Shown piece after piece: positions 37,361 through 60,633 of a stretch of 64,000 nucleotides of DNA. Position 1 is the first letter of the stretch. The number at the start of each line of letters is the position of its first letter. The stretch covers positions 32,627,001 through 32,691,000 of the forward strand of contig NC_091671.1 of assembly GCF_042453785.1 (NCBI RefSeq), read 5' to 3'. Made by a program: the position numbers and the translations under genes. The notes below the pieces were generated by a model that was not told the DNA's origin, did not search any database, and saw only the letters and a list, made by a program, of their open reading frames with translations. The DNA is from Malus domestica. Lineage: Eukaryota > Streptophyta > Magnoliopsida > Rosales > Rosaceae.

Positions 37361-38135
37361 TGTTTGTACCATACTTAGGGCCTCCGTATTTAGATATCGT
37401 ATAAATACTCGGAGGACTCAAATGTAATTATGTAATAAAGGAAGAGGCAAATATGTAATAAGTGATGAGCCCTTATTCTATAAAAGGGCCTCTTCACCCT
37501 CACAAAAGGTCAAGCCTCTCATGTTCAGAGCAAAGCTCTCAAGCTCTCCTTCCCTCTCATCCTCTCACAAATAGAGAAATACAATATCAGTGTGGACGTA
37601 GCCCAAATGTTGGGGTGAATCACGATACATCTTGTGTTATTTACTTTCTTGCAGATTCACGGTCGGATTTATGTTGTTCCAAGACCCCTCTGATTTTGTG
37701 CATCAACATTTGGCGCCGTCTGTGGGAATCAATACGAAAAGTTGTGTCGGTTCTCTTTCATTTTTTCACCTCCGCCATGAATCTGCAAAACCCACAGAGA
37801 CATAGACACACTTTCTCTCTTTTTCTCTTTCTCTCTTTCTCTCATCACTCGGTTTTTGTCCTCTGTAAACATCAAGGGCCAAAAAAAAATACCCAACTGA
37901 GAAATAAGAAGATACAAGGAGGAGGAGGAGGGAGGAGAAAATCCAAGCTCGAAAAGAAGATCGGGATCTGCGCTGAACCACTATTCTATTCTCCTCTCTG
38001 TTATCGCCGTCGTCGAGCTTCGAATTGGAAGCCCAATTCGATCGGATCCTCTTGGTCCCCGTGGCTCGCTTCGCCTTGATTCTCCAGCTCTCGAACTTGA
38101 ACCCTCAGTCGCCGTTTTGGTTGAAGCCTCGAAAA

Positions 38136-38549
38136 ATGGCCTTCGCCTGGGCTTCCTCTTCCACCATTACAGCCGTCGTTGTATCGTTGCATTCCCAGAA
38201 GGGCGGGTCTTCTTTGACGGTAACTAAGGCTTCTTTCTTTGGTGAGAGGAAGCTAAGAGTAAGAAGCTTCACATCCACCATTGGATCATCGTCATCTTTG
38301 ACAGTACGTGCGGCTGCTGCTGACCATGATAGACTTATGTGGTTTTCAGGAAGCACCCATTCCCCATGGCTCGATGGAAGCCTCCCAGGAGATTTCGGCT
38401 TCGATCATTTTGGTCTTTCATCTGACCCAGATAGCCTGAAATGGAACCAGCAAGCAGAGCTTATACACTGCAGATGGGCAATGCTCAGTGTAGCCGGAAT
38501 CTTCATCCCCGAATCTTCAGGTTTCTCATATGTTGGAAAAGTATTTTGA
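38136..38549 (+). pseudogene. LHCA2: Captured N-terminal part of LHCA2 (photosystem I antenna protein)
   Basis: From the ATG at 38136 the frame encodes a chloroplast transit peptide-like start, then the mature N-terminus of LHCA2: [32 protein letters not shown] and HCRWAML in the first chlorophyll-binding helix, and GIFIPE. Similarity stops there. A foreign tail [11 protein letters not shown] runs to the stop, so helices 2-3 and most pigment ligands are missing. Substitutions at otherwise conserved sites (FGFDPLGL changed to [16 protein letters not shown] to MLSVAGIF) indicate relaxed constraint. The frame is open without an intron and in the LTR sense orientation. An in-frame Met upstream at 38025 would extend it into apparent 5' leader. 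The sequence could be transcribed from the LTR but would not make a working antenna protein. Confidence 0.88.
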
Positions 38550-38629
38550 AATATTCTGCTGAAAATTGAGATTTGTGGGCCGAAATTATGATTAGTGTTC
38601 TGGGTGGTTGAGGAGTGGGATATTGGTAT

Positions 38630-38960
38630 GGTTATTGCCAAGAGCAACATCAGCAGTGAAACATCAACAGGGCTGTGTAATTGCTACAAAGTTGCTAGCT
38701 TGACTTCCTCCATCTTAGATGCAGATGAGACCTCAAATTTAAAGGATCAGTACATTCTAGGAGAGCAATCAGATTTGCTTTTCGCACTCTCGCTCGCTGA
38801 CCCGCTCACTGATGCTGACATGGGCTTTGGTCAAGGTGGGTCGGCCTGGTGACCGTGTGATTGCCTTCTATGTGCTCAGTGGATCTCAAGCTCAAAATCT
38901 GCAAAGGAACATCAATCAAGAAAAGAAAGTGCTGTCACTTTAGAGAAAAAGAATACAGAA
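38630..38960 (+). pseudogene. Second protein-like fragment in LTR copy 1, unidentified
   Basis: The plus strand reads SNISSETSTGLCNCYKVASL and on to TSSILDADETSNLKDQYILG before a stop at 38852. A different frame continues KVGRPGDRVIAFYVLSGSQA to a stop at about 38942. The composition is unlike random AT-rich DNA, and the position, directly after the LHCA2 piece, suggests further captured gene sequence. I do not recognise the parent. Confidence 0.35.
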
Positions 38961-39372
38961 AGCAAAAGCAAGGAACGGGGAGATCAAGAAAAGCAAGAAA
39001 AGTAAGTGTGTGGTGTCAAGGATGTCCAGGCAGCTATTACGTTTTATAAGAGAACATGCAGGAAATAGAAAAGAGAAAGTAAAAGTAAAAGCAAAAGCAA
39101 AAGTAGAAAGCAAAAAAAGATAAAAAGAAGCAGACATAATTGAGGTGGTGATGACATGCAAAAAAGGGAATTATGGGCGTGACCCATTGAGCAGATGATC
39201 AGATTTATTTTTGAATGATGTGATTTATTTTTCTTATCTTTCGGAGACATCTGTATAAACCCCATCAAAGGGTAATACAAAAAATAAAAAATACAAACTA
39301 AAAGCCCAAAATAATGGACTGGAATGTTATGTGGAGGGCGAAGGCCCATATGCCAAAAAGAGCCAGACCCTC

Positions 39373-39612
39373 TATTATCACCAACCAAGTGATCAAAAGT
39401 ACGTTCAGTACTCCAAAATTATTCGATAGCCTGCCACTATTATCACCAACCAGGTGATCAAAAGTACGCCAGTACTCCAAAATTATTCGGCAGTCTGCCG
39501 CTATTATCACCAACCAGGTGATCAAAAGTACGCCCAGTACTCCAAAATTATTCGGCAGTCTACCGCTATTATCACTCACTAGGTGATCAAAAGTACGCAC
39601 AGTACTTCAAAT
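39373..39612. repeat. 65-bp tandem repeat in LTR copy 1
   Basis: Four units starting TATTATCACCAACCA(A/G)GTG at about 39373, 39438, 39502 and 39567 each contain GATCAAAAGTACG and AGTACTCCAAAATTATTCG. The same units occur inverted in copy 2 (57600-58015), so this is a family feature of the element. Confidence 0.85.
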
Positions 39613-39614
39613 TA

Positions 39615-39870
39615 TACATGAGCATTACTTACGTCAATCATACATAAACATTCATGAGCATCACTCATGTCAACATTCATGAGCATCACTCATGTCAATT
39701 AACATAAACATTCATGAGCATTACTCATGTCAATCAGCTTCAAAAGCTTGATTTACAAAGCTCTAGCTTCGAAAGCTTCATTTACAGAGCTCCAGCTTTC
39801 AAAGCTTCATTTACAAAAGCTCCAGCTTCAAAGCTTCAATTGCAAAGCTTCACCTACAAAGCTTCAGTGC
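39615..39870. repeat. CATGAGCATYACTCATGTCAA and AAGCTTCATTTACAAAGCT repeats
   Basis: Two short tandem families follow one another, about 20-bp self-complementary CATGAG...CTCATG units and then 21-24-bp AGCTTC-type units. The inverse arrays are in copy 2 at about 57235-57600. Short open frames across them are repeat artefacts. Confidence 0.75.
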
Positions 39871-40039
39871 AGGGTATACAAATACCGCCTCCGAACAACC
39901 GCCACTTCGGCCCATACATGGTTCGAATTTGAAATCTCCAGCCAACAGACTCTATTGACTGAAGACTTGGGGGACTACACTATGTACCATATATTGGGCT
40001 TCCTCAACTGGGCCTCATGAAAAATACTTGGGGGACTTA

Positions 40040-40385
40040 GCCCATTATTTATGTACTGAGGAGCAAGCCCTTATTCTATAAAAGAGACTCCCTCACCATC
40101 ATTAGAAAGCATCAACTCTAGCCCATCACTTATGTAATGAGGAGCGAGCCCTTATTCTATAAAAGGGACTCCCTCACCATCATTAGAGAGCATCAACTCT
40201 AGTCCATCACTTATGTATTAAGGAGCGAGCCCTCATTCTATAAAAGGAACTCTCTCACCATCATTAGAGAGCATCGTCGCCAACTAAGCAACCGTCTTGC
40301 CGCGAGCATCAACTCTAGCCCATCATTCATGTATTGAGGAGCGAGCCCTTATTCTATAAAAGGGACTCCCTCACCTTCAATGCCG
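40040..40385 (+). repeat. Internal repeats carrying LTR-like TATA blocks
   Basis: Four copies of a unit contain GAGCCCTTATTCTATAAAAG followed by (G/A)GACTCCCTCACC. They closely match the promoter block of the LTR (37467-37495). Three inverse copies lie at about 56825-57045 in copy 2. Confidence 0.75.
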
Positions 40386-41877
40386 CAAGCTGAGCCAACC
40401 AAGGCAATATAAGCTACAAACCGAGCAGCCTCGCAACTTATGCTACTTCTAGTTGAGCATCATTTCACTTTGAGCACCGCCTCATATCAAGAATCAGGTC
40501 AAGACGACATCTAGTTACTTCGGCCCACACATGGACTGAATTTCAAGTCTCCAGCCAAAAGACTCTCTTGACTGAAGACTTGGGGGACTACTGTTTGTAC
40601 CATACTTAGGGCTTTCGTATTTAGATCTAGTATACATACTTAGGGAACTCAAATGTAATTATATAATAAAGGAAATGGCAAATATGTAATACGTGAGGAG
40701 CCCTTATTCTATAAAAGGGCCTCCTCACCCTCACAAAAGGTCAAGCCTCTCATATTCAGAGCAAAGCTCTCAAGCTTTCCATCCCTCTCATCCTCTCACA
40801 AATAGAGAAATACAATATCAGTGTGGATGTAGCCTAAACATTTGGGTGAACCACGAAACATCTATTGTTATTTACTTTCTTGCATATTCACGGTCAGATT
40901 TACGTTGTTCCAATACCCCTCTGGTTTTGTGCATCAACACCATTAAATAACGGGTCACTTTGGGTCAACCCGTTAGACCCATTAGCACCCGTTAGTTGAG
41001 GATCTTTAGTAATTTCAGTAAAGTCTTAACAAAAAAAAAAAAAACCCCTATGCAAACAAAAATAATAATAATACTTGTTAACGGGTGAAACGGGTTGGGT
41101 TCGAATGACCCGTTAATTGTGCTAGAAGGTCACACATGAAATTATCTTAAACTTAAGGATATTAACCTGTGTAGCTTACTCTTTTAGCTTTTATATTCTG
41201 TCACGTGAAATTTTCGTATACATGTTGGTATCATATTTGGCAAATTTGCAACAAATTTTTTTTGTTACAATCATTTTAAAACGTTGATGGAGTGTTGTTG
41301 TAAAACTTGAAATTGTAAAGGCTTAAAGCCTTTAGGTAAAACCAACCAATGAAGTATATGTGTATATATTACATGTAGCTTCCAATTGGGGAACTGTTTG
41401 TCCCTTTTGCTTCACTTCCAATCCACTGTAGGCTTCCCTTCCAATCCACTTTAGGCTTTTTAAATGTACATGCCTCATTAGTTTCTTCTTAATTATCAAT
41501 TTAAGTCTTATATCTAGTCCTTGTGTTACGAAGCGTGTCGGCAATTTTTGAGTTTACATGGAAGTTACATTAGCACCATATAAATCAAAATTTCATCGAG
41601 ATCCTCAAAACGACAACCAACCTTTGCCACATCATCAATTTTGCAAAATATCGACCATATTAAAATCGATGAAAGGCCTAAGTGGTGAATTACCATGGTG
41701 ATTAGGACATCCCCTTTCAAGCATTTCGGGCTCAAACATTTCACTCTTCCTCAGTATAAATTAAAGTAGTAATATCACTTGTATTTAAAATAATAATTAA
41801 GATAATTGATACGATACTAAAACCTCACGATGCAATGTGAAAAAAAATTGTAATTTTGTGACGCAATTAAAAAAAAC

Positions 41878-42278
41878 CTAAAATGGAACTAGCCTAAAAT
41901 AAGATAATGTATCATAGATAAGTTCTGATGAAGTCAAGTCAAAGATTAACCATCCTATCCCTCTCATCTTCTGTGCAACTATTGACATAGGTAGTGGTGG
42001 CCGGACTTGAGGAAGGGGTTGGTAGAAACCAAAACTACACGTATTTTGATAGCTTTGATGATTAACGTTATCTGAAATGCACGCCGGCTGGTAATCTTGT
42101 CCCGGAATGTTATAGGAACAAAACAACTCTGATCAGAACGAGGGTGGCCAAAATTAGTGATGGGGTTTGGTTTAAAAATGGGGCAATATATTGGAGCTGG
42201 TCTGGTTGAAATTGGTTTTGATCATTGATTTGTGAAACGGCAACTGGGTTTTGTTGAACATCATCGTTTGAAGGCATG
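41878..42278 (-). pseudogene. Degenerate Gln-rich coding remnant
   Basis: From an ATG at about 42278 the minus strand reads MPSNDDVQQNPVAVSQINDQ, then NQFQPDQLQYIAPFLNQTP, to a stop near 42116. A shifted frame continues YNIPGQDYQPACISDNVNHQ and SYQNTCSFGFYQPLPQV. The Gln/Asn-rich style resembles the C-terminal part of a plant transcription factor, but no DNA-binding domain is present and I cannot name a family. It is probably dead. Confidence 0.3.
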
Positions 42279-42544
42279 ATAACAAAGTAGCGTCTAAATT
42301 GATGTCTGGATCCATTACAGGTCCAATTCCATAAAATTCAAAATATTAAGATTCGAAAATTGAAATCTGTTCGGTAACTATTTTCAGCTTTTAGTTTTAA
42401 GAAAAAAATTAAAATTGGAAACTATATTTTTTTTTTTTAAATTTGGCGTTGAGTTTTCACTTTTTGGTTTCAGTTTTATAAAATTTGAAAACGTTATTGA
42501 ACACAATTTCAATAAATTTCAAAAAAGTGAAGACTGAAACAAAA

Positions 42545-42766
42545 TGGTTAACCGGCAAGTGGCCTAGCGGTAAAGGCTCAGACTGTAGCTCCCCAAAAAG
42601 ACAAAGAAAATGTGGGAGGTTCCGAGTCCAATGCTTCGAGTGGGTCATTCTGCTTAACTGTGGCCACGGATAGAGTGAAATTTCCTATGACCTCTCTGGG
42701 TCTGGAAATGGTGAATAATCGTAACTTGCCACCAGTTGTCTATTTTTTTCGAAAAAAAAAAAAAAA
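42545..42766 (+). mobile_element. Probable SINE
   Basis: A tRNA-like head (GGCAAGTGGCCTAGCGGTAA, box A-like) is followed by GGAGGTTCCGAGTCC (box B-like), a non-coding body, and a T-run plus 14-A tail at about 42752-42766. Target duplications were not resolved. Confidence 0.5.
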
Positions 42767-43719
42767 CATGGTTATCGTTTGATGCCTCAACTAAATATGC
42801 GGGCTACTAGGGTTTCTTTGCAATACACTATTACAAAGGGTTTTGAAGGTTTCGGCCCATCCTAGCAGCCAGCCTTTGAGTCCACCTCGAGTCCGACGCA
42901 GTTTCCCGCCATCACGTGGCATGTTCAAGCTCAGCACCCACTACAAGACAATATACCTACCTCACACGATGACCACCCTTCTACTTACTCCATTATATTC
43001 CGAATTTGAAATCCGGTCGGCAATTTATTTCTAACATTAAATAAAAAATTGAAAAAAACCAAAATTCCAGGCAATTCCGCAAATTTCTCAAATTAATTAG
43101 ATAACACGGAGGACAAAATCATGCGAAGATTTTAATTCCTTTCCCTCTCCCGATCCAGGCAATGCTCTGATGATGATCTGATTGATTCCTTGTCCCAATC
43201 AGAGATTCGGAATATCAGAGCATTGCTTGGCATCGAAACAGTGGCATTTGTCTTTTCAATTTTTTATTGCTTGGAAATTTATCTGAAACTTCTTCAGGTA
43301 AAGCAATCGAAGACCCTTTATCTTTATATCCTCTGCTGCCTTTTTAACTCCTCGGATTGGCTGATTGTTTTGTCCTCCGCAATCCCCACAACCCCTGTTT
43401 GGTTGCTGAGAAAAAAACTGTAGGAAGATTCTGCCACCATTTTGTTTTCTGTTTTTTTTTTTTTGAGTTAAAGCTTTAAAACCCCCTTTTTTTTTTACAC
43501 AGAAATGGAGTTTCTGAACCGGGTTTCTGGCAGTTCTAGGAATCGCTTGGCTTCCCACATTCATAGTTTTCTTGCTAAGAGGTTGAGTTTTTGAAAGTTT
43601 GGAACTTTAATTGATCGAATTATAGTATTTTTGTTGTTATTACTTTTTTTTTTGTGTTTGATCATTATTATTGATTTGAAATTGGGATTTGATGATTGAA
43701 AAACACTGCCAGTTGGGAT

Positions 43720-46700
43720 ATGATGATGGGTGATACGAAAACTGAGGATAAGTTGAGGGACTTTTACATTCCTAATTACATACTTGTGAGTGGAGCCGAT
43801 ATGCCAAAAGTTCGAATTGTGCCTTCGTGTCCGGTCATTGTGTTTGTTAATGCCAAAAGTGGTGGTCAGCTTGGAGGTGAACTTCTTCTTACGTATCGTT
43901 CCCTTCTCAATGAAAACCAGGTTTACTTATAGGCTGCACCGCAGCTACTTCTAATTTCGCTTCGTGGATTTACATGTTCTTTTTTATAGTTTGATGTAAT
44001 GGGATGATTGGCTTGACTCATTTTTCAGGTTATTGACTTGGGAGAAAAGGCTCCTGACAAGGTGCTACACAAGCTTTATGTAACTTTAGAAACTCTCAAG
44101 AGCGGTGGAGATGTTTTGGCTGCTGAAATCGAGAAGAGGTTAAGAATAATCGTGAGTTGAGCTTTTGCGTTTTGAAAATTTGAAACCTGTGTTGTTCTAA
44201 ATGCCCATGATTTCATTCTGTATCGTTTCTGAATTGATAGGTTGCAGGTGGAGATGGTACAGCAGGCTGGCTCCTCAGTGTAGTTTCTGATCTTAAACTA
44301 CCTAGCCCACCTCCGATTGCCCCAGTCCCGTTAGGAACTGGAAACAACCTCCACTTCGCATTCGGTTGGGTAATTATTCTGTTTGCCAACCTTGTGTGTT
44401 TCAGTCTATCTATTTATGGTAATTATTTGGCTTCTTCTGGATGTGCATTAACTCAACTCAGCCGTAGCTTTGTAAGCTCATCAGATTTTTAATTCACAGG
44501 GGAAGAAAAATCCTGGCACAGACCGTCAGTCTGTGCAGTATTTCTTGAATCAAGTGAAGATTGCGAAGGAAATGCAAATTGACAGGTGACATCTATTGTC
44601 TTTGAATTTAGAGGTAGTCAGCTTTTTTCAAAATATACACATTTAACAGGTCTGTGCGGCCTACATTACTGCTCAGTGAATCAATACTCTTCAGTGAATA
44701 GTTGAGACATAGTCTATTTATTTTACGTTTGTCTTTGGTATATCAGCTGGCACATAATAATGAGAATGAAGTCTCCAACGGATGATTCTTGTGACCCTAT
44801 TGCGCCTCTTGAACTACCCCATTCTTTACATGCATTTCATCGGGTCTCCCAAAATGATACACTCAATATGGTATGATTTCTGTTTCCTGGTCAAGTGCCA
44901 ATCGGAATATTGATAACTCAATTCATATATCATTTTCTTGTTAGCTTCATTTGTAACACGATTAGGTAAACTTACTGCAAAAATTGTTGGCTGTTCTCAG
45001 GAGGGTTACCAGACTTTTCGCGGGGGCTTTTGGAACTATTTTAGCATGGGTAAGAAACTAAGAATGCAAGAATGTCTTTCGAATTCTGCTTGTGTGTTGT
45101 GAGGAAGGGATCTAGGATAAAATTTAAATATAGTTTTAAAGTTCAATAACATAACCTCCAATGGTTAAGGAGAAATGAAATAAAGTAAGCATAGAATCAT
45201 GCTTGTTTCAAGCATCTCTATGTATTGTGCAGGCATAATTTCATAATAACAGACGGTCAGATAAATGACGTCTTGCATAGTCTGCCATATATTGAGATAT
45301 AAGGCTTATATGACATGCTATGGAGAGGAATGGCGGTAATCGGGTAGTTATTCATAAAGGAATTGTTTTTTGAAGATATAGCTGTCGATGTGCAGGGTAA
45401 TTAAGTTATGCCCCCTGTTGTATTGATGCTATAAGTTAACCTTAAAAAGAAAGAAAGAAAAATCTGATCTTTTATTTACACTGTGTTGCCCTGCCTAAAG
45501 TTTCGAAGTAAATATTGGTTGGGCTCATAAGTAGTGACAAGAACTCATACGGAGTGCAATTTCCGGGTTTTCTGACAAATATATTTTGTTTTATACAGGA
45601 ATGGATGCTCAAATATCATATGATTTTCACGCACAGAGGAAGTTGCATGCTGAAAAGTTTAGAAACCAGTTAGTTAATCAAGTACTAAATCATTTTCTGA
45701 ATCTTTAACATCATGATCCAAAGTAGATTAGTGTAAAACAATGTCTATTTATTTATCACTATAGTTTTAATGAATGAAGTCTTCATCCATCTAATATGAT
45801 GGTTACCTAATCAGGGTTTTCATTTGTTCTGGATTCTAAGCGTTAAAAAGTTGTTTTGGTGTCTAGGTGTTTCCATCTGTTACTACATGGGTCTAACTTG
45901 TCCCCATAAGTCAGAAATAAATTTTCTACTTATCATAATTCTTTGATTTTGTAATTTGTTCAGGGTACTTACTTGAAGCTTGGATGTACACAAGGATGGT
46001 TTTGTGCTTCTCTTTCGCATCCAGCTTCACGGTTAGTCTTCTAGCAACTGTATGTAACATTGGGAATTTTACTTTTATTGTTCTCAGTTGTACATGATAC
46101 ATCTTCTGGTTTTTCTTTTTATATTTCCTAACAGTAGTACAATTTCTTGTTAAAAAAAAAGGCAGAAATTTCATCAAAGAAAATTCAAATTTATTGACCA
46201 TCTTCATGACATCACCACTTTTGGACTCACCATTCAGTATTTGCACTCCCACTCGACTTAAACCAATCGTCGCCTTTCCATTGAACCTCAATCACCATAC
46301 CTAGTCTAAGTTTTAGTTATTGAAAGAATTGGCTCGTGACGGATATATGATTTGCATAGTTTCGAGTGAAGACTAGTGAGTTATAGCCCATTTTGCGGTA
46401 AAAAAGACGAAAAAAGAAACCAATATGTGACTTCTTGTTCTCTTTATTTTTGCAATGATCCGAAATCAGGATTGGTGAATTCATTTAAACATTCTGAGAC
46501 CTATGGTTATCAACCATTCTTCAAGTTAGCCTTCTGTTTGGCTGTCTATGTTAGTGACAATGCCCGTAATCTCAACACAGGAACGTAGCACAGCAGATAA
46601 AGCTTAGGATCATGAAAAGACAAGGTCAATGGGAGGATGTCCTCATACCTCGCAGGTAATACAAAAGATCTGTTTTAACTTTTTGTTAACTGTTATGCCT

Positions 46701-47797: not shown

Positions 47798-48360
47798 CTT
47801 AGTTAAGCCTTTAATTGCTCACAAGGTCAACCTGCATTGCGGGTTCACGAAAATTGAGGTAGGTTTTGTCCAACAGAGTCCATCGGGGCCTCAATTTGAA
47901 ATCTCACCGTCCTGACAGTGTGGTTGAGACATGCTATTTTGTGGATTGTGTGCATACATAATTCTACTAACATCTGGTGAATTCGGATTCAGATTCGAAA
48001 TCCACTTCTTTACCTGAAAATTGCTTGATTGTATAGGGCACATATACTTGATTCTGTAACCGTAGGTATTAATCCTTAGCTTGTGCAGCAAAACTCTGGT
48101 ATTTAAAGCTATATAAGAAGAGAGCTCTACTGCCTGTCTGTATTTACAAGCTTCTTAGTTACGGAATGCTCTTGCAAAAATTGCATCTCAGCTAAATTTA
48201 TAAGGGGTTTGAGGGCTTGAGCCATGCAACTTTAATGTCCTTTTCTGTTATATAAAAGCAAAACTAGGAAACTGAAACCCCCATTCTACCCATGTGTTGT
48301 AACTTTGCAAATGCCGTGGCTCGTAGAATGACCAAGTTGGCTTTACTTTTTTATCTCAGC
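47798..48360 (+). other. 3' flank of the DGK5-like gene
   Basis: This is the presumed 3' UTR and downstream DNA. No second gene is visible before the SINE target site at 48361. Confidence 0.4.
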
Positions 48361-49674: not shown

Positions 49675-50260
49675 ATCTCCAACCCTGGCCTATAATATAT
49701 TTCCCCCCTTCTATTCCCCCTCAAATCCAACCCAACCCAAGCTTAAAATTGGACCTAAAACCTAAAATCTAAAACAAAGCTAGATTTAGCTCAAGATTAG
49801 TGAGGCTGACCCACCATATATGTATATTTTATTTAGTTTTATATTTATAAATTCATTAAATCGAAAGGTTAAGATCGAATTTGATGAAATTCAACAGTAA
49901 AACAAAAAATTAACAGTCCAAATTTAAACAGTTAAGGTAATTAAAAAAAATCTTTATGTGTTTTATATTTGTTTCATAGTATTTAACGAGTTTCATGGTG
50001 TTGGTTAGTGATTTTTCAGTATTTGTCAGAATCTAAATATTTTTAGGTTAAATGTTCATAAAATTAAATTAGGATAGTCTAAATATTTTTTTTTCTTTTA
50101 AAAAAGTTACTTTAAGAAAAAAAATTAGTCTAAATTCATTCTTTAATAATCTGGAGCTAAAATTTTAGGCCAAAAGAGTTAAAGCAAAAAAGTTGTTTCT
50201 GAGTTAAAACCTAAATTTTTTGGGCTAAAAAGTTTATGTTTTAGGCCAAGGGTTGGAGAT
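49675..50260. mobile_element. TIR element with ATCTCCAACC ends, present in one duplicate only
   Basis: The left end ATCTCCAACCCTGGCCTA and right end TAGGCCAAGGGTTGGAGAT are inverted repeats. The corresponding position of the paralogous block (near 52575) lacks the whole 0.8-kb stretch, so insertion after duplication (or loss from the other copy) is visible directly. A SINE-like tail with A-rich end follows at 50262-50420. The interior is AT-rich without coding. Confidence 0.6.
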
Positions 50261-50551
50261 AGTTTAAATGAAAGGTTTTAAGTTTGATTCTCATCAAGAC
50301 GAATTTGAACTATATTATTGCTAAGTTTTTGTGAGGTTTAATCCACTCTCACACTCATTTAGTATAAATAATATTATTTGTTATAAAAAAAAAATTAAAA
50401 AAAAATTAAAAAAAAAAAAAAACCCAAAAACAAGAAAAGCGCGTGGCTTTGCACATTGTTTTGCAACCCTATTAGTGTTACCACAGATTTGTTTCCGTGA
50501 TACTGGCGGCTGTGCCTTGATTTTCGCTCCCCTTCTCCTATTAGCTTCCTC

Positions 50552-50560
50552 TATATATAT
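50552..50560 (+). promoter_or_regulatory. TATA box of WIP copy 1
   Basis: TATATATAT follows a CT-rich tract about 130 bp before the start codon. The identical box occurs before copy 2 at 52772-52780. Confidence 0.6.
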
Positions 50561-50681
50561 GCATCAATAAATTTAAGAAACCTCAGATTCAGATTTCTCA
50601 TTTCATACTCTCCCTTTCAAGTTCAAACTTTCACCTGTAAGATCTTTGATCACAGCAAAACCAGCAAACAATCAGAAAAAA

Positions 50682-50948
50682 ATGAGTGCAGCGTGCAGAG
50701 CTTGGATTGTGGCAGCAAGTATTGGAGCAGTTGAGGCACTCAAAGACCAAGGAGTCTGCAGGTGGAATGGGGTTCTGAGATCAGTCCACCAACATGTCAA
50801 GAACAACATCAGATCCTATTCCCAAGTCAAGAAACTCTCCGACTCTTCGTCTTCTGCAATTTCTATGAAGATGCAGAGATCACAGGAAGACAAGTTGAGA
50901 AAAGTCATGGAATTGAACTGTTGGGGTCCTAATACCATAAGATTTTAG
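50682..50948 (+). CDS. Wound-induced small protein (DUF3774 family), copy 1
   Basis: A single exon encodes 88 residues from ATG 50682 (A-rich context AAAAAAAATGAGT). The N-terminal MSAACRAWIVAASIGAVEAL is the conserved hydrophobic helix of the DUF3774 wound-responsive family, followed by KDQGVCRWN, a Ser/Lys-rich middle (KKLSDSSSS) and the conserved end CWGPNTIRF. No enzyme motif is present. Family members are strongly wound- or stress-induced and have been linked to growth and auxin responses. It lies in tandem with two paralogues downstream on the same strand. An upstream in-frame extension lacks an ATG and is ignored. Confidence 0.92.
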   Translation: MSAACRAWIVAASIGAVEALKDQGVCRWNGVLRSVHQHVKNNIRSYSQVKKLSDSSSSAISMKMQRSQEDKLRKVMELNCWGPNTIRF

Positions 50949-51266
50949 ATTCTAATTATGTAATTTAGATTTAGGGTTTATGAGTATTGGATTATATGTC
51001 ATCCCTTTTATCATGAGAATTAAACGACTTATTTCATTGCTCATTGTCATTGGATAAAAATGGCGTTGTCAAATTTTAAGATCAGTGTTCTGGTGATTGT
51101 TTTAAGCCCTGAACTTATTAAACAAATCCATGAACAGGAACCATGAACTCTTCCGGTAGATCCATATCATAAAAGCAGTCTTAACATGGATTTGATGAAT
51201 TTTAAAATTATCTTTTGCTGCAATAGTAATCAATTAACATACAGATGGATGCCATCCTTTTGGCTC

Positions 51267-51298
<32 letters not shown>

Positions 51299-53089
51299 GT
51301 CAAAGCACTCAGTCAACAATTTAGGATAGGAACCACATCCTTAGACTTTGAGAATATGATAGGAAGGTTGTTGGCCTTACTAGCTCGTATAATGTCATAT
51401 TTAACTTCTTAACAAGTTATTTTCGAGGATGCCGTGGTATTGCTTGCTCCATCAGGCAGGTTGAGTGGAACCATATTTACAATGAGGTTAACTTTGTCGT
51501 GGACGCATTGACTTACATTGGTCTTTCTGTGGAACCTCCACATGTTTGGGATCACTGCTTACTTGCTAGTGCCCTCATTGCTTTTAATTTTGATTGTATT
51601 GGAAAACGGTTGTACTCGTGACTTTTCGCTTTGTTACTAGTTCTTTTTTGGATTAAAAAAAAAAAAGCACATTGTCCTCGAATAATATGGACTACTCAAG
51701 TTTCTAAAGAAATTTGGTGTAAAGTCTTATTCGATGTAGACCTAAGCAATATTTTAATTTGAATAATACTAGAAAGATTAAATTTTTAAACTAAATTTGC
51801 AAACTAAATGATGTGTCATTAATAAAAAATAAGCATGTTAATCAATAGTTAAGTAATAATTCAATTATTAACATTTACACCATTTAGTTTATAAATTTGG
51901 TTTTCCTAACATTACCCTTTTAATTTAGTTTAAACTAGGAAGGAGAAATTAGAAATTAGAAGCAATCTTGTGGAAAATGAGTAAATTATATTAGTCAATT
52001 AAACTGAAAAAGCTATGCACACTGCTAATTGTGACCTTTCTTTCTTGCACGACTTAATTCAAAAAGGAATTTGGGTCAAAGTGTGTATTAAAAAAAGTAT
52101 GATTATACAAAAATGAGGAATATTAGCGACCTTCCCATTTGAGACATTTTCATTCTATTTTCTTGGCTCTCCTCATTTTGCAATATTTTTTGTTGATCAT
52201 AATCATTTACTTTCTTGATTACTTTTCAAAGATTACTTATACAAAAAACTAACTAAATCCAAATCATTTAATTATCTAATTGTTAACCAATAAATAGATG
52301 TAACATATTTCTCAGTTAAATAAGAAATTTTTGACAACGTTAATTAAACAGTTAAATAATTTCTGCTTTGGTGATTTTTTTGAAGTTGATCTTTAGAGAG
52401 TGATCTAAAAAGTGAACAGACTACGATTTTCCTAAAAAAATTACCTATACGAAAATAGTAATAATACGGACTGCATTTTAAATTTTTAACTCCTTACATT
52501 GGAGATAGCATAATTGACCTAAAATCAAAGACCCCTAATTCAAATTTGGTGTTTTGGAATACCAAAAACAGAAAAACCGAAAAACAAGAAAAGGACGTGG
52601 CTACTGACTCCCCCAAAGAGGAGCGTTTAACTACCCTTTGACTCATGACCTAAAAATGCATGTGCTTTTTGCCCATTGTTTTGCAACCCTCTTTGTATCA
52701 CCACAGATTTATATCCCTCATACTGGTGGCTGTGCCTTGATTTTCGCTCTCCTTCTCCTATTTGCTTCCTCTATATATATGCATAAATAAATTCAAGAAT
52801 CCTAGATTCAGATTTCTCATCTGCGAGACGGCCAGTAGTCTCTGACTTGGTCTTCAAATCGTAAGTTTAAGCTTGTTTTCAGCTTTTGCCTCGCTTTCAA
52901 TTGAAAGGAATCTGAATCTCCCTTTAAAACAAAATGAAATCATAATCCCAAAACATTAGACAACATAAATTACTTTTTTGTCAACAACACGGCCCTTTTT
53001 CGGATATCGGTTATTTCATACTCTCCCTTCCAAACTTTCACCCGTAAGATCTTTGATCACAGCAAGCTCAGAAAACAATCAGAAAAAAA
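50949..53089. other. Intergenic DNA of the tandem WIP duplication
   Basis: This contains the 3' flank of copy 1, a (GT)n(AT)n microsatellite at about 51271-51298, and the upstream region of copy 2 with its TATA box at 52772-52780. 51130-51425 is paralogous to 53500-54130, and 51680-52820 to 48900-50600. A ~190-bp insertion lies in the leader of copy 2 (52821-53011). Confidence 0.6.
52821..53011 (+). other. Extra ~190 bp in the leader of WIP copy 2
   Basis: Copy 1 reads GATTTCTCATTTCATACTC continuously at about 50591. In copy 2 the same sequence is split by 190 bp beginning CTGCGAGACGG. The insert includes a donor-like CGTAAGTT at about 52860. It could be a small repeat, or act as a leader intron. 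No terminal repeats were recognised. Confidence 0.55.
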
Positions 53090-53356
53090 ATGAGTGCAGC
53101 GTGCAGAGCTTGGATTGTGGCAGCAAGTATTGGAGCAGTTGAGGCACTGAAAGACCAAGGAGTCTGCAGGTGGAATGGGGTTCTGAGAGCAGTCCACCAC
53201 CATGCCAAGAGCAACATCAGATCCTATTCCCAAGCCAAGACACTCTCCGACGCTTCGTCTTCTGCAATTTCTATGACGATGAAGAGATCACAGGAAGACA
53301 AGTTGAGAAAAGTCATGGAATTGAACTGTTGGGGTCCAAATACCATAAGATTTTAG
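53090..53356 (+). CDS. Wound-induced small protein (DUF3774 family), copy 2
   Basis: This 88-residue single-exon protein is nearly identical to copy 1, differing mainly in the middle (RAVHHHAKSN for RSVHQHVKNN; TLSDASSS for KLSDSSSS; MTMKRS for MKMQRS). The conserved ends MSAACRAW and CWGPNTIRF are unchanged, so it is probably functional. It arose with copy 1 by a segmental tandem duplication that includes the promoter. The distance from TATA box (52772) to ATG is about 318 bp instead of 130 because of the inserted leader sequence, which may alter expression. Confidence 0.92.
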   Translation: MSAACRAWIVAASIGAVEALKDQGVCRWNGVLRAVHHHAKSNIRSYSQAKTLSDASSSAISMTMKRSQEDKLRKVMELNCWGPNTIRF

Positions 53357-53800
53357 ATTGTAATTATGTAATTTAGATTTAGGGTTTATGAGTATTGAAT
53401 TATATGTCACCCCTTTTTCCATGAGAATTAAACGAGTTAATTGTTCTGGCGATTGCTTTAAACCCTGAAGAACTCATTTAACAAGCCCATGAACAAGAAC
53501 TATGAACTCTTCCGGTGGATCCATATCATAAAAGCAGTCTTAACATGGATTTGATGAAAAGATTTAACTTTTGCTGCAATAATAATCAACAAACAAGAGA
53601 AATTTTTAGTTGCGATGGGAATACAGATGGTATACTATGTGTTTTTATTCAAGTGGTGGAAAATTTTAATTTTGAAGTTATTAACCTTTTAACACACATA
53701 CCCACCATTTATATAGGGACACATGGTGTACCACCTCGTGTGACAGTCACACTAAAAAATCTCTCAACATACAGATGGATGTGATCCTTTTGGCTCGTAA

Positions 53801-54010
53801 ATTTATGGAACTGGATCCTCTCCTGAGCTCAGGATGGGGATCCTCTGAGTAGCCCATTCAGGGCGTTCAAATTTGATCCAACGGCTGCAAACAGAAAGCT
53901 CCTCTAAAAGTTATAATAATTGCAATCGTTGGATCAAGTTTGAATGGTCCGGATAGGCTGCTCATGAGGATCCCCATCCTGAGCTCAGGAGAGGATCCAG
54001 TTCCGTAAAT
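53801..54010. mobile_element. Hairpin MITE with long perfect arms
   Basis: The left arm (GGAACTGGATCCTCTCCTGA through GAGCTCAGGATGGGGATCCTC) and right arm (inverse, ending GGATCCAGTTCCGTAAAT) pair over about 45 bp. The paralogous site near 51268 lacks the element (GGCTCG directly followed by GT/AT repeats), confirming an insertion. TSD length is uncertain because the flanks are AT-simple. Confidence 0.78.
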
Positions 54011-54660
54011 ATATATCAAAGTACAATCAACTATTTAGGACGAGGGACCACATCCTTAGACTTTGAGAATATTATAGGAAGGTTGTTGGTCTTCCCAGCT
54101 CATATGGTCTCTTATTTAACTTATTAACAAGTTATTTTTTGAGAATATGGTTTTCAAAAAGTAACGTTTTCTCCAAAAATTTAAGAGTGATGTATTCTCA
54201 CCATAATGTTTTATCTCCTCACCTACTTTTTAATTAAATTTTTAATTATAGGTTTGTCCATTATAAAATAACCGATAAAAACCTTGAAAAACATCATGGG
54301 AAAGTATACATTTTCTACTTGAGTTGCAACACACTAAAATCAAGGTTTCCTTTGAAAAAAGTTTGACAGTGAAGCATCATGATTTTTGACATTCAAAGTT
54401 CAATTCATGGAAGTTCTCAAGGCGTGTTTAACAATCCGTAATCAGAATGAAAAGAAAGAGTCTGATTCCGATTACGGTTTATACCTGTGTTTACTAAAAT
54501 TTAAAGGAATCAACAGTGTGTGGGACCCACACAAATAATGGAATTCAATTCCGGGAGAGTGAGTGAATCCGGAATTCATTTGCTCTTCCTATTATGCCCT
54601 CTTCTCTTATCAATACGCCGTTCAACCCAACAAATTAATCTCACGAGCTTGAATTCTGGT

Positions 54661-55923
54661 TAGGGGTGGGCACGGGCCGGGTCGGGCCTAAATTTGGAGG
54701 AATCGGACTCGACCCATTTTAAATTGCAACGGGCCGGGCCAGGCCGAGTAATGAAATTTCTAAAATTGAAACCGGACCTAACCTAGCCCGTTTGAAACGA
54801 ACCGGTTCGGGCCAGGTCCACGGGTCCAATAACATTTTTTCAAGAACATATTTGGGTCTACAATTTTTTTATTAGAACAGGCTTGGCCCATTTGAAGACA
54901 ACAACTTCATTCAACCAGTTTTCCCGTTCTTATCATCCAACAACATTTAAACTGTAAAATATGTAGACAACCATTCCCAATCATCAAATTATAACTGCAA
55001 ATCATAAAGCGTAGCAATTTAAAGCATATGGAATTTAGTAAGAAAACCAATGAACATGAATAAGTTCAATATTAGTCTATTTTGCCTTACAAGTCCAGCA
55101 AGATCCTTTACAGAATGATTTTCCAAAGCTAAACTAAAACCAAAACTAAAATCAAAACCTAAGCAAAACTAATTAAATCCAAAAAATTTAGAAACTACAT
55201 CCCCAAATTCAGTAACCCAGAAATTTCAAAAATCCTAATTCAAAAGTCCTAAATCCCTAAATTTAGAAACCCAGATAATTCAAAAACCCTAATTTAGAAA
55301 TTACCTTAATATGAGAGAAGATGATATGATATTTTGAATCACAGGATGATGGTGGTGTTCTCGACAGCGGTGACGGGTGGTCGCATTCGGGAGGAGACCA
55401 TGGTGATGGTGGTGTTCACAAGATGACTCGACTCGAGTGAGAAAGGGGGAGCGATAACTCTGATCTGGGAGCAGATGGTGTAGGGGAAGCACCTATGTAC
55501 ATCGTCGTGGCTTCAATGAGAGGAAGAGTGAACAGTGGAGGAGGCGCTGAGGAAGCAGTGGGAGGTGAAGTGATGGCGAGACGGCCTGCAGGGAGAAGAA
55601 ACCAAGGTTCTAGAGATGACAAAGGTGGATGAGGGGGAGAAAAATCAAGCCCTAGAATCTATGAGGAGGCAACCTGGAAGTTAAGAGATGATGGCTCCTG
55701 AAAAAATATACTTACAGGCTTTGAGAGAGAAGACGAGAGTTAGTGACAGAGAGGTGGAAATAAGATATGTGGTAGAAATTAATGGTGGAGATTTAATCTC
55801 CATAGAATGGACGGTGGAAACGGTCCTACTCAGGTACCCGTTTTTTCAGAAATTTGGACCCGACCTGCCTCGCCAATTACATGGACCCGCCCCGTAGGTC
55901 ATAGACTCGTTTGCCCACCCCTA
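54661..55923. mobile_element. hAT transposon, non-autonomous, TAGGGGTGGGC ends
   Basis: TIRs TAGGGGTGGGC and GCCCACCCCTA flank 1263 bp and are bordered by a perfect 8-bp TSD ATTCTGGT (54653-54660 and 55924-55931). The ends continue into GGGCCGGGTCGGGCC-type sub-terminal repeats typical of plant hAT elements. The interior holds only short frames with no transposase. Confidence 0.9.
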
Positions 55924-57599
55924 ATTCTGGTAGAGTAAGGGAATCAAAAATCCGATAGGTTCAGGAGATTTGCAGGTTGCATACGAGATCTTGTTCCCGA
56001 ACACCGGATCACCGTCGTTCAGGAGGCGATGAACCAGCCGCTTCGACATCGCCGACATGCAGCGTGGACGTAGCTCCAAGATGATGACGTCAACGTCAGT
56101 ATCTCACAGACGTGCTTTTCGCTCACCTATTCATCTTTCTGTGACATTGTTTTGGCGACCGCGACCTCGAGGTCTAATTTCTGGGTTTTTTCTTCCGCGG
56201 AGGGAAGATGATTGTGGCTGGGCTCTTACTTCGGCTTTTGCACAATAGTGGACTTTAACTCTGTTGATGCACAAAACCGGAGGTCTTGGAACAACGTAAA
56301 TCCGACCGTGAATCTGCATGAAATGTAAATAACACAAGATGTATAGTGGTTCATCCTAAGGTTTGGGCTACGTCCACACTGATTATGTATTTATCTGAGG
56401 GAGAGAGAGCTCTGAGAGTTAGAGCTTTGAGAGGGGGTGAGGAGCCTTAGGAATTGGCATCCCCCTGTTGTGAGGGTGAGGAGTCATTTTATATAATAAG
56501 GGCTCCTCACTTATTACATATTTGCCCCTTCCTTTATTACATAATTACATTTAAGTCCCCTGAGTATTTGTACGAGATCTAAATACGGAGGCCCTAAATA
56601 TGGTATAAACAGTAGTCCCTGAAGTCTTCAGTCAAAAAAGTCTTTTGGATGGAGACTTGAAATTCAGTCTATGTGTGGGCTGAAGTAGCTAGATGTTATC
56701 TTGAACTAATACTTGATATGAGGCGGTGCTTAAAGTGAAATACTGCTCAACTTGAAGTAACACATGCTGCGAGGCTGCTCTGCTTGTGGCTTATGTTGCC
56801 TTGGTTGGCTCGGCTTGTGGCATTGAAGGTGAGGGAGTCCCTTTTATAGAATAAGGGCTCACTCCTCAATACATAAATGCTGGGCTAGAGTTGATGCTCG
56901 AGGCGAGGCAGTTGCTCAGTAGGCGGCGATGCTTTCTAATGATGGTGAGGGAGTCCATTTTATAGAATAAGGGGTCGCTCCTCGGTACATGAATAATGGG
57001 TGCTCTCTAATGAAAGTGAGGGGGTACCTTTTATAGAATAAGGGCTCGCTCCTCAATACATAAATAATGGGCTAAGTCCCCCAAGTATTTTTTTATGAGG
57101 CCCATTTGAGGCCCAATATATGGTGTATAGTGTAGTCCCTCAAGTCTTCGGTCAATAGAGCCTGTTTGCTGGAGACTTCAAATTGAATCCATGTATGGGC
57201 CGAAGTGGCGGTTGTTCGGAGGCGGTATTTGTATACCTTGCACTGAAGCTTTGTAGGTGAAGCTTTGCAAGTGAAGCTTTGAAACTAGAGCTCTGTAAAT
57301 GAAGCTTTTGAAGCTAGAGCTTTGTAAATGAAGCTTTTGAAGATAGAGCTTTTTGTAGCTTTTGAAGCTAGAGCTCTGTAAATGAAGCTTTTGAAGCTGA
57401 TTGACATGAGTGATGCTCATGAATTTTTATGTTGATTGATATGAGTGATGCTCATGGATGTTGTCCTGAGTGATGCTTATGAATGTTAACATGAGTGTTG
57501 CTCATGAATGTTGACATGAATGATGGTCCTGAATGTTTATGTATGATTGTCATGAGTGATGCTCATGAATGTTTATGTATGAATGAAAGGAGTAATGCT

Positions 57600-58015
57600 C
57601 ATGTATAATTTGGAGTAATGGGCGTACTTTTGATCACCTGGTTGGTGGCATGAAGGAGAGTACGTGTTGTACATTTCATCACCTGGTTGGTGGCATGAAT
57701 GGCTAGTTGCCAAATGATATTAGAGTACGAATTGTACATTTCATCACCTGGTTGGTGGCATGAATGACTAGTTGCCAAATGATATTAGAGTACGGGTTGT
57801 ACATTTCATCACCTAGTTGGTGGTAATAGTGGCGGGTTGCCGAATAATTTTGGAGTACTTGGTGTACTTTTGATCACCTGGTTGGTGGTAATAGCGGCGG
57901 GTTGCCAAATAATTTTGAAGTACTGGGCGTACTTTTGATCACCTGGCTGGTGGTAATAGCGGCAGGTTGCCGAATAATTTTGGAGTACTGGGCGTACTTT
58001 TGATCACCTGGTTTG
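57600..58015. repeat. ~65-bp tandem repeat in LTR copy 2
   Basis: Units contain CATCACCTGGTTGGTGG and, in the right half, AATAATTTTGGAGTACTGGGC with GTACTTTTGATCACCTGG. They are the inverse of the 39373-39612 array and somewhat expanded here. Confidence 0.8.
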
Positions 58016-58686
58016 TGCTATTTTGGGCTTATGGGCCTTTGCCCTCCGTATGACATTGTAGCCCATTATTTTGGGCCTTTAGTTTTTTTTTTTTTTTTTT
58101 TTTACCCTCTGATGGGGTTCATACTGATGTCTCCAAAAGATAAGAAAAATAAATTACATCATACAAAAACCAGAAAAGTAAATCACATCATTCTGGTGGG
58201 GTGTTTATTCCTTCCTTTTGCTTTCTCTTTTGCTTTCTTCTTTTGTTTTTTTTGCTTTTTTTCTGTTTCTTCTGCTTTTCTTTCTGCTTTCTACTTTGGA
58301 TATGTCGCTTGATGACATGATTAAGGGCAACAGGGGTAATCGTGACAGAAATAGAAAATATTGTGGTAGGGGTTCTCATGGCTTGAAGCATGTGGCTCCT
58401 TTATTGCTGAAGGGATGGCATGGTTGCTTTCGGCCTGGTTGCCTTTCTTTTGCTTTTGCCTTCCCCCATCTTTGTTGTTTTTTTTTCCTTTTGGCTTAAA
58501 GATTTCAAACCCCAACTTGCAAGCATCTTTTCCATCTGACACGCTTTCACCCAAATCGGGTGATTTGAGAAATGATGTATGGATTCGGTGCACATAGTGA
58601 TAGGACAAGTGCCGCAAGCTTGCATAATGATAGGACATGTGCAGCAAGCTCTTCTCTTTGCCCACCATCGCCAGATCTGAGCTGCT

Positions 58687-58920
58687 TTATTTGACCAAGA
58701 TAATCCTGTTCACAACATCAACTGGCAAAGCATAAGTTGGATCTAGGGCCTTCACCTCGGGATATTCAAGAAGGAAAAGTCCAGCTACACCAAAGTATGT
58801 GTGGTAGACATCAACAACATCTTCTGGTCTGTCAGAAATTTTTCCATTTTCAATGTCCTGGAAGTCTAAAATGAATTTGACAAGTTTTTCCTTATCAATC
58901 CAATGAACTCTGTTAATCAT
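58687..58920 (-). pseudogene. Captured C-terminal part of Rab geranylgeranyltransferase beta subunit
   Basis: The minus strand reads [20 protein letters not shown], then [40 protein letters not shown] and a stop at 58687. This is the C-terminal prenyltransferase repeat of RABGGTB (family: ISDRP...HTxFGVAGLSLL). Changes such as LSLLEYPG to LFLLEYPE suggest loss of constraint. The catalytic zinc site and most of the alpha-alpha barrel are missing, so it cannot prenylate Rab proteins. It runs without an intron, in the sense orientation of LTR copy 2. Confidence 0.85.
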
Positions 58921-58939
58921 GACCAAACTTGAAAGAACC

Positions 58940-59200
58940 CACCATGAGAGTGCAGATGAATCAAGCGAGGCAAAACGCGGACCCTCTCAACGACGTCGGT
59001 TTTGGAGTCGAAGTCGGAGCGAACCTCAAGGTCAAGGAGCGAACCTCAAGGTCGAAGAGCTTGGAGAGGAAGAAAGAGCGGTCGAGATGACTGACGAGCT
59101 TGCGGATCTGGTTGGTCCGTACAGAAACGAGGCTTTTTGTTGTCGCCGTGTTGGCCGTCCTCTTGCTCGAAGATATATATACTTAATTTGTATGTGACTT
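58940..59200 (-). pseudogene. Unidentified protein-like cargo in LTR copy 2
   Basis: Between the two named fragments the minus strand can be read VRTNQIRKLVSHLDRSFFLS, then KLFDLEVRS, and after a 20-bp tandem duplication [17 protein letters not shown]. It is GC-rich relative to surroundings and looks like captured coding DNA, but I do not recognise it. Confidence 0.35.
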
Positions 59201-59212
59201 ACAGGATTGACA

Positions 59213-59297
59213 CCGCGGCTTCTAATGGCTGAACCCATTTGAATGGCAGCGTCATAAACCTCTTGATACGTAAGCCACACATACGGACCCACCTTTG
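59213..59297 (-). pseudogene. Captured exon of a long-chain acyl-CoA synthetase
   Basis: The minus strand reads KVGPYVWLTYQEVYDAAIQM, then GSAIRSRGVNP, typical of the N-terminal region of plant LACS enzymes (LACS4-like by memory). It is followed at once by GTAAGT (59207-59212), an intact 5' splice site, after which coding similarity stops. The retained splice donor means the captured template was genomic DNA or unspliced RNA. It is the same strand as the element. Confidence 0.75.
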
Positions 59298-59509
59298 TGT
59301 CGCTGACCTATCGCCGTCCAAGCATTGGGTTGCTCGGATAGTTCTTAGCAGAGTCACCGCATGGCACTTTTACTGCTCCGTCTGGACAAGCAGCTTGGAG
59401 TTACCACAAGATGTATTCCGTGGAGGGGAAGATAAAGGGCTCGTTCAGGAAAAGCTTCAGGTGGCTTAAAAGATAAGTACACCCAAGTGCTTTATGGCTG
59501 AGGGTTGGC

Positions 59510-59775
59510 GCGGGAGACTCCCAAAAATGCCTTGAGAGAGCACTTCGACAAGCACGGCAAGATCTTGGAGGCCGTCATCACCTCCGACCTCCACTTCTGC
59601 ACTGATTCGTTGGGTACGACGTCGTTCTCGCCGTTGTAATCCTCGTCGAGCTGTAGAGAGTCAGCAAGGGAGCGAGCGAGGGCACGTGCGACTTGAACGC
59701 TAGCGCGTAGCTGTGGAATTTCATCCCGTGCTTCTGAGGGAAGCTGTGGATGAGGTCTTTGCGGACGTTGCTCAT
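59510..59775 (-). pseudogene. Second unidentified protein-like cargo in LTR copy 2
   Basis: Starting near 59775 the minus strand has a GC-rich frame MSNVRKDLIHSFPQKHGMKF; an overlapping frame continues LQLDEDYNGENDVVPNES and QKWRSEVMTASKILPCL to a stop near 59500. The strong GC contrast and frame switch suggest a decayed captured exon. Source unknown. Confidence 0.35.
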
Positions 59776-60633
59776 GGATTTTTTCTAAAAAGGGGTGGTC
59801 AAATTTGGTGGTTGGGATCTCCTAATGGAGCTGAAGATCTCGTGGAGTGGGATGGTGGAAGCAGTAGCTAGTCGATTGGGTTTCGTAGATTTTGCAGATT
59901 CACGGTAGAGGTGAAAAAATGAAAGAGAACCGACATAACTTTTCGTGTCGATTCCCACAGACGACACCAAATGTTGATGCACAAAACTGGAGGTCTTGGA
60001 ACAACGTAAATCCGACCGTGAATCTGCATGAAATGTAAATAACACAAGATGTATCCTGGTTCACCCCAATGTTTGGGCGACGTCCACACTGATTATGTAT
60101 TTATCTGAGGGAGAGAGAGCTCTGAGAGCGAGAGCTTTGAGAAGGGGTGGGGAGCCTTAGGAATTGGCCTCCCCTTTTTGTGAAGGTGAGGATTCCTTTT
60201 ATAGAATAAGGGCTCCTCACATATTACATATTTGCCCCTTCCTTTATTACATAATTACATTTAAATCCCCCGAGTATTTGTACGAGATCTAAATACGGAG
60301 GCCCTAAATATGGTATAAACAAACTCTTTACGAATAGAAAAAAAAAATCTTTAGTTTAAGTAAAAATAACTAGTTTAAATGTTTTTAAATATAAATATAG
60401 AATAAAATTAAAAAAAAAAGGCATTTTAGTAATCGTATTGATTTTTATTCCGATTCAGTTGATTTAGTAAACAACTTCTATGAATTCAGTTTCATTCCTA
60501 TTCCGATTCCTAAATATTTAAGTAAATAGTTTCAACAAGAATTTGATTTTGATTCCTCCTCAATTCAATTCCTCCTCAATCCAATTCCTCATATTTTGAT
60601 TACGGTTACGTAAACGACCCCTTAATTTTGTCT

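Follow-up and report, generated by a model that had tools for sequence, protein, structure and literature searches.

Does one non-autonomous family of long terminal repeat (LTR) retrotransposons in apple (Malus domestica) repeatedly acquire and exchange host gene sequence, and if so, by what route? The question is raised by two complete LTR elements of one family, element A (37361-40939, + strand) and element B (60321-56262, - strand), which have LTRs, leader and a tandem-repeat 3′ interior in common and lie in a single 64,000-nt stretch of the apple genome (C11:32627001-32691000; hereafter the window, in whose coordinates positions in A and B are given). We searched the 651-Mb assembly (19 contigs) to which the window belongs; C numbers denote its contigs, L numbers the loci fetched from it, and P numbers protein gene models. 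In the copies sampled, the frame of the element is near-constant and nearly all of the middles differ, while the middles examined closely are patchworks of spliced host-gene pieces. The family probably builds them by template switching onto co-packaged host mRNAs in minus-strand synthesis, repeated over generations.

Structure of elements A and B

A preliminary description of the window had placed both elements at these coordinates, with target-site duplications (TSDs) and "identical ends" that took in the LTRs, the primer-binding site (PBS) region plus ~90 bp, and a 3′ interior of tandem repeats. The coordinates and the paired LTRs, which have TG...CA ends, were confirmed, as was an exact TSD for B; that of A matches at only four of five positions.

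Element A
37361-37708, +: 5′ LTR, 348 nt, 90.8% identity to the 3′ LTR
40592-40939, +: 3′ LTR, 348 nt
37356-37360 (left, CTATT) and 40940-40944 (right, CCATT), no strand: TSD, 4/5 matching
37709-37790, +: putative PBS (TTTGGCGCCGTCTGTGGGAATC) and leader, present as well in 12 of the 13 other elements picked by their LTR
37791-37955, +: lineage-specific 5′ segment, recurring directly after the leader in elements on C16 and C2 (2/2 fetched)
37959-38122, +: captured piece of a low-copy host locus, "gene X", with no name assigned (donors C13:9346401, C13:9355446 and C16:9276184)
38116-38514, +: captured piece of LHCA2, exons joined and three donor introns absent
38512-38775, +: captured piece of the C1:29357122 locus, starting with the last 6 nt before the donor's 3′ splice-site-like AG
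38776-38924, +: older cargo or 3′ sequence common to L050, L051 and L052, whose matches start at 38519-38605 and end at 38924
38813-40591, +: family-wide 3′ interior, an A-rich tract followed by 65-bp, 29-bp and 81-bp tandem arrays
40570-40591, +: polypurine-tract region, GACTGAAGACTTGGGGGACTAC

Element B
59972-60321, -: 5′ LTR, 350 nt, 94.0% identity to the 3′ LTR
56262-56611, -: 3′ LTR, 350 nt
60322-60326 and 56257-56261, no strand: TSD, AACTC, exact
59890-59971, -: putative PBS and leader
59602-59889, -: first 288 nt of cargo, without a donor match (40 scored of 101 candidates)
59366-59601, -: captured piece of a multi-copy gene or repeat family (C3:2850244-2850575 and other places)
59175-59361, -: captured piece of a LACS-type acyl-CoA synthetase, one intron removed and the first ~29 nt of the next (GTAAGT...) kept
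58964-59174, -: captured piece of mitochondrial ribosomal bL25m
58685-58948, -: captured piece of RABGGTB, C-terminal exons with two donor introns absent
58486-58580, -: captured piece, an exact exon of the C16:3031060 locus
56612-58485, -: family-wide 3′ interior with tandem arrays and polypurine tract

When the two elements were aligned, nt 1-430 of A paired with nt 1-432 of B, covering the LTR and the 82-nt PBS and leader, and the alignment resumed at ~nt 1710 of A and ~nt 2025 of B and ran to the end. These ends (77-84% identity between A and B) belong to one family without being identical, and the shared 3′ interior starts upstream of the part that can be aligned between A and B, at ~38813 and ~58485, respectively. 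The putative PBS adjoins the 5′ LTR, and the polypurine tract adjoining the family's 3′ LTR includes GAAGACTTGGGGGACTAC. The interiors measure 2.9 kb and 3.4 kb, with longest open reading frames of 205 and 174 amino acids in A and none of at least 120 amino acids listed for B. The 81-bp repeat unit of A resembles the U3/TATA region of the LTR. More generally, the 81/71-bp units of the 3′ interiors (40038-40275 and 56824-57071) resemble the TATA-bearing part of the LTR, so that each element holds several extra promoter-like copies. Kimura two-parameter distances between paired LTRs are 0.099 in A, 0.063 in B and 0.034-0.118 in 13 further elements; under a substitution rate of 1.3e-8, from rice, these would correspond to insertion ~1.3-4.5 million years ago.

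It could be argued that a single ancestral interior has diverged past recognition in the two copies. The best local score between the middles, however, is 26, compared with a mean of 24.3 over 100 shuffles (95% point 28, maximum 29), while identity is 75-84% in the parts on either side, and the host loci that the two middles match (at 83-97%) are different ones. A score at shuffled level refutes a single diverged interior, and we give this explanation practically no weight.

Host genes in the middles

The preliminary description had assigned LHCA2 to A, and RABGGTB, LACS and unidentified pieces to B. Those pieces are present, but both middles proved to be multi-gene chimeras, with at least three host loci in A (LHCA2 and two others) and at least five in B, bL25m included. 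The cargo of A (query 1-1279, corresponding to 37791-39069) matches LHCA2 at C13:8415893-8416915 in four cargo-adjacent pieces that lack the introns between them (125, 394 and 105 bp), and every join fits GT...AG; C16 carries another copy of the gene. The gene was named at E 1.6e-43 to "Chlorophyll a-b binding protein 2" and 2e-40 to "Photosystem I chlorophyll a/b-binding protein 2". Locus X (C13:9346401) lies 5′ of LHCA2, and the C1:29357122 piece, which we take to be kinase-like (no tool gave it a name), lies 3′ of it.

The cargo of B (query 1-1592, corresponding to 59889-58298) has donors on C6 (RABGGTB), C10 (LACS-type), C14/C12 (bL25m), C16 (the exon) and C3 (the multi-copy family). RABGGTB (E 1.6e-29) and bL25 (E 5.5e-15) were both recovered; the LACS-type piece matches AMP-binding at E 7.6e-4, under the Pfam cut-off, and the name LACS is our presumption. 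The C16 piece is one exon, flanked in the donor by TCAG and GTAAG. Within the bL25m piece, a 20-bp tandem duplication (59016-59060) shifts the frame. When pieces of B and A were combined in one protein query, RABGGTB dominated the matches (best 120 of 400), and PDB searches of the LACS-type, kinase-like, and first and last B pieces returned nothing usable.

Eight donor introns are absent in four genes: three in LHCA2, two in RABGGTB, one in the LACS-type gene, and two (79 and 129 bp) in an M20 peptidase (donor on C14) carried by a further element, L035. The first six fit GT...AG at the base level, and the last two were judged from coordinates only. The eight donor loci that were fetched are 83-97% identical to their cargo pieces.

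Gene pieces of this kind might also be later insertions (retrocopies, Pack-MULEs or Helitrons) into an ordinary element, and nested insertion does occur in the family, given that L021 and L027 hold ~2 kb of extra sequence within the 3′ interior. In A and B, however, the pieces abut at the base level, several of them exon to exon; the middles sit between the same two borders; and no inverted repeats were found inside either middle among 25 of 35 pairs listed (minimum 60 nt). On account of this abutment, we rejected independent insertion as the chief origin of these two middles, and we regard the explanation as very improbable.

Copies of the family in the apple genome

With the A LTR as the query, 40 of 3661 first-look candidates were scored, all at 86-100% identity, and 20 loci were fetched around part of those 40. 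A further complete element, with both LTRs and the 3′ interior, is present at 13 of these; the remaining seven (L022, L024, L029, L032, L034, L036 and L039) were dropped as solo, truncated, nested, or running off the stretch. The 5-bp TSD is exact in 12 of the 13 and matches at four of five positions in L023, and whole elements are 3374-6097 nt long. Homology at the 5′ side ends a median of 88 nt past the LTR (quartiles 82-102; 170 pairs of 19 elements).

Between these borders, the 13 elements carry 12 different middles. When the cargos of these 13, A and B (15 in all) were compared all against all by BLAST (E 0.001, with low-complexity filtering), the same cargo was present only in the sister pair L030 and L031 (92.8% over 1081 nt), each of which has its own TSDs, indicating that captured sequence moved with the element. 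Otherwise the comparison gave 11 short matches. Two of them (33-44 nt) directly follow the leader, and the other nine (28-155 nt) lie nearer the 3′ border; L025 and L028 have the longest of these in common (155 nt), followed by A and L038 (141 nt). In 15 of 15 cargos, the last 150 nt are richer in adenine than the first half. The search by LTR similarity that had been suggested as a check thus yielded many copies with the same frame and different middles and, with host domains in sense in seven of the 13 (two below the curated cut-off), bears out the earlier view that this family has repeatedly acquired host sequence.

Sense orientation of the cargo

For 18 cargos, 54 sense frames and 54 antisense frames were scanned against Pfam at E 0.001, with L030 omitted as the sister of L031 and only the private part used for four of the cargo-sharing elements described below (L049-L052). 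The sense frames matched 34 families, 25 of which were listed, many of them redundant WD40 models; the antisense frames matched two. Sense domains occur in at least nine of the 18 cargos, at or above the curated cut-off in A, B, L025, L027, L035, L037 and L040 and below it in L021 and L026 (20 sense frames of the remaining elements were scanned singly for the per-element assignment). No gag or pol family was among the 25 of 34 sense-frame families listed for the cargos scanned.

Layered cargo

Parts of the cargo of A or B occur in five further elements, L049-L053, all with the LTR and leader (four cargo-sharing places were fetched and a fifth in part). L051 is whole, with the exact TSD TACCA, and the other four run off their stretch. 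Layering was observed in two groups. In the first, L050, L051 and L052 share the A cargo from query positions 729, 729 and 815, respectively, to 1134, and have different sequence 5′ of that; A and these three have one tail in common, which spans the join at query 985. Sharing between L050 and L051 continues for another 345 nt in the 5′ direction, beyond which they differ, and two more, unfetched places share the A tail from near 38640 (query 849/850-1134). In the second, L049 shares the B cargo from 712 to 1592 (84%) and L053 shares it from 1172, and both differ 5′ of that; the RABGGTB tail is common to B, L049 and L053, and bL25m to B and L049. We also noted ~150 nt of L051 cargo (688-839) that are absent from L050 in otherwise shared cargo, with no GT...AG ends in the alignment.

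Proposed mechanism and its alternatives

The family appears to keep cis-acting parts only, namely the LTRs, the PBS with a leader of ~82-90 nt, and the 3′ interior with its tandem repeats and polypurine tract. Helper proteins would package its RNA along with host mRNAs. Minus-strand synthesis would begin in the element, copy the 3′ interior and switch to one or several host mRNAs, and then switch back to an element leader; the resulting chimera would integrate, and integration with a 5-bp TSD is what the copies display. Over repeated rounds, some 3′ part of the parent cargo would be kept and the stretch between that part and the leader replaced. Since minus-strand synthesis starts at the 3′ end, it is the 3′ cargo that would be kept, and rounds of keeping 3′ and replacing 5′ sequence would give layered chimeras in which the order of capture is partly readable.

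Several observations weigh against this mechanism. An element's own RNA could be spliced after capture at the DNA level, and missing introns alone are therefore no proof of mRNA capture. Capture of DNA by repair, gene conversion or recombination, with introns lost later by splicing of the element RNA, would suit the presumed kinase-like piece of A, which begins in an intron-like stretch, keeps its last 6 nt and is joined differently there in L050/L051, as well as the LACS-type piece, which keeps an intron start. The join of B to the multi-copy family of C3 has no canonical splice site. The two antisense domains also favor the DNA route, as simple mRNA capture does not predict them: one is a C2 domain in the private cargo of L052 (C13:5349500-5354500), above the cut-off, and the other is DUF3511 (E 6.7e-9), whose carrier element was not located in the 30 of 54 antisense frames scanned singly. 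However, the orientation of cargo is mostly sense, donors from several chromosomes are joined exon to exon within one element, and the LACS-type piece is without its upstream intron though the next intron is cut off, like a partly spliced transcript. These three features make capture at the DNA level less likely, and we consider it quite unlikely overall.

A second set of adverse points concerns where sharing lies. The 5′-most ~165 nt of the A and L035 cargos are found again in other elements, immediately 3′ of the leader (4/4 fetched), hence sharing is not purely 3′, and both ends of a middle can come from element RNA with a new piece between. The B-cargo search gave 47 non-self matches, 22 of which run to the query's 3′ edge; just two of these begin in gene cargo (at 712 and 1172), and the other 20 begin at 1394-1472, on the boundary with the family-wide 3′ interior. 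Fresh capture might be rare, with template switching among co-packaged element RNAs shuffling a modest stock of old pieces, an explanation with which the recurring 5′ segments, the nested sharing of 3′ tails and a 93-nt piece common to L033 and L049 all agree. Against it, host families could be named in nine of the 18 cargos and differ for the most part, most cargo is private within the set of 15, and the eight fetched donors remain 83-97% identical to their pieces. We consider such shuffling of old stock rather unlikely.

Also on the adverse side, L038 is without the leader, for nine of the 18 cargos the matches listed (E 0.001) include no named domain in sense, and L049-L053, having been picked for shared cargo, show the pattern of layering and give no frequency for it. 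The autonomous relative with the same LTR and PBS that the preliminary description had envisaged was not found, nor was a helper, in what was a weak search; when viral_contigs and genome_contigs were scanned for exact patterns from the LTR end, the leader and the PBS, no locus matched.

With these points counted, template switching onto co-packaged mRNAs remains the reading we think probable. We extend it only tentatively, at slightly less than even confidence, to a lineage that lives as a mosaic, in which each transposition could overwrite 5′ cargo and keep 3′ cargo, the 3′ repeat/A-rich region and the leader serving as the entry and exit of the switch. Such a lineage would be a standing exon-shuffling machine that stores a time-ordered sample of host mRNAs.

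Malus gene models carrying the element

The best protein matches to the open frame of A are the Malus domestica models P0001 (99%) and P0002 (84%), with the same fusion of LHCA2 and the next piece. The copy behind P0002 was not seen in the assembly: of 116 candidates 40 were scored, and in the 52 matches obtained the LHCA2 part hit only A, C13 and C16. When LTR/leader peptides and pieces of cargo were joined in one query, 12 proteins were recovered, all from Malus, comprising B's own model (P0173, 100%), the A-type P0001 and P0002, and nine that join an LTR-end/leader peptide to other sequence. P0168 has remorin N and C with Auxin_canalis, P0169 has ECH_2 (Pfam), P0175 has HSP90, and P0177 also includes a 3′ tandem-repeat peptide. 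NCBIfam was significant only for P0169 (ECH type) and P0175 (HSP90 type). The remaining leader-bearing models gave no significant cargo family, and PDB searches with the cargo of P0170, P0171, P0172, P0174 and P0176 and with parts of P0169 and P0177 gave nothing at E 1.

The leader peptide of P0172, P0175, P0176 and P0177 may stop at an annotated GT splice donor, in which case these four show no breakpoint. Six of the nine models (P0170, P0171, P0172, P0175, P0176 and P0177) enter the element at the same LTR site, at 37640-37660 in the window, before ATTCACGG and after TTTCTTGCAG, as would be expected if a splice acceptor in the LTR could be used.

Other features of the window

Long open frames at 1841-4921 resemble those of a non-LTR retrotransposon (endonuclease- and reverse transcriptase-like by eye). 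Direct repeats of 300, 136, 96 and 89 nt (89-96% identity, spacings 2220-2715) lie at 50448-54138, which is probably a tandem duplication of ~2.3 kb. At 33878-36302 (- strand), the reading frames contain what are presumably pieces of an ABC1/UbiB-like kinase gene.

Relation to known systems and significance

The way in which LTR elements capture host genes has been argued from few examples, namely Bs1, a terminal-repeat retrotransposon in miniature (TRIM), and Rider (PMC13317346). Bs1 of maize is described as an LTR element with segments of three host genes and a transcribed chimera (PMC13317346); A, B and L035 carry host exons without introns between their LTRs, as is characteristic of gene-transducing elements of the Bs1 type, but Bs1 is one described element lineage, whereas the apple family has 12 middles in 13 further copies. 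The soybean TRIM GmaRetroS15 is reported to have intronless exons of three genes, 5-bp TSDs and several copies; TRIMs in that source are 1.2-1.4 kb, and gene fragments are given for 7 of 289 TRIM subfamilies (PMC4717578). Intronless exons, multi-gene cargo, 5-bp TSDs and several copies are all found in apple too, but the apple elements span 3.4-6.1 kb with middles that vary from copy to copy, and whole elements of 3374-6097 nt are too large for the TRIM label.

Surveys of gene capture by LTR elements exist for rice and sorghum (PMC3726574). A maize survey counted 425 LTR elements that contain fragments of host genes, the products of at least 189 capture events, and under its conditions reported no element with more than one standard nuclear gene (PMC2774510); A and B resemble these elements in carrying host gene fragments and differ in that each holds several genes. 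Large retrotransposon derivatives (LARDs) are described as having LTRs, no gag/pol and a large conserved non-coding interior, usually of >4 kb (PMC4668562). The apple elements likewise have LTRs without gag/pol, but their middles are not conserved and differ between copies, and the LARD label was rejected. The pear survey that gives this description lists LARD and TRIM families, and the terms "captured" and "host gene" are absent from its main text (PMC4668562). Tat/Ogre Ty3/gypsy elements have tandem repeats in the 3′ untranslated part and a 5-bp TSD (PMC7004042, PMC6317226), both of which recur in the apple family; the apple copies, which have no coding region, may belong to the Tat/Ogre lineage.

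In LTR-mediated retroposition, reverse transcriptase is proposed to switch, perhaps repeatedly, between the RNA of the element and an mRNA packaged with it (PMC5408686). This is the same mechanism as proposed here, to which the apple family adds layered cargo that fits serial switching. Among the literature on apple/Malus LTR retrotransposons and gene capture, we found no such apple family by title or start of abstract, subscription journals being mostly uncovered. The preliminary description had put the family forward as a candidate for an undescribed system. Given that non-autonomous LTR elements with captured genes, including more than one gene per element, have been published before, the apple family is a variant and not a new kind; what is new is the many different middles and the layered, spliced, multi-gene cargo in the copies examined.

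With many datable middles, intronless multi-gene cargo and nested histories, this family would make the switch points, donor choice, orientation and rate of capture measurable. Such elements may also give rise to exon-shuffled transcripts and to small RNAs directed at the donor genes. Some of the odd "hypothetical proteins" in apple annotations are chimeras of this kind, for which the family accounts.

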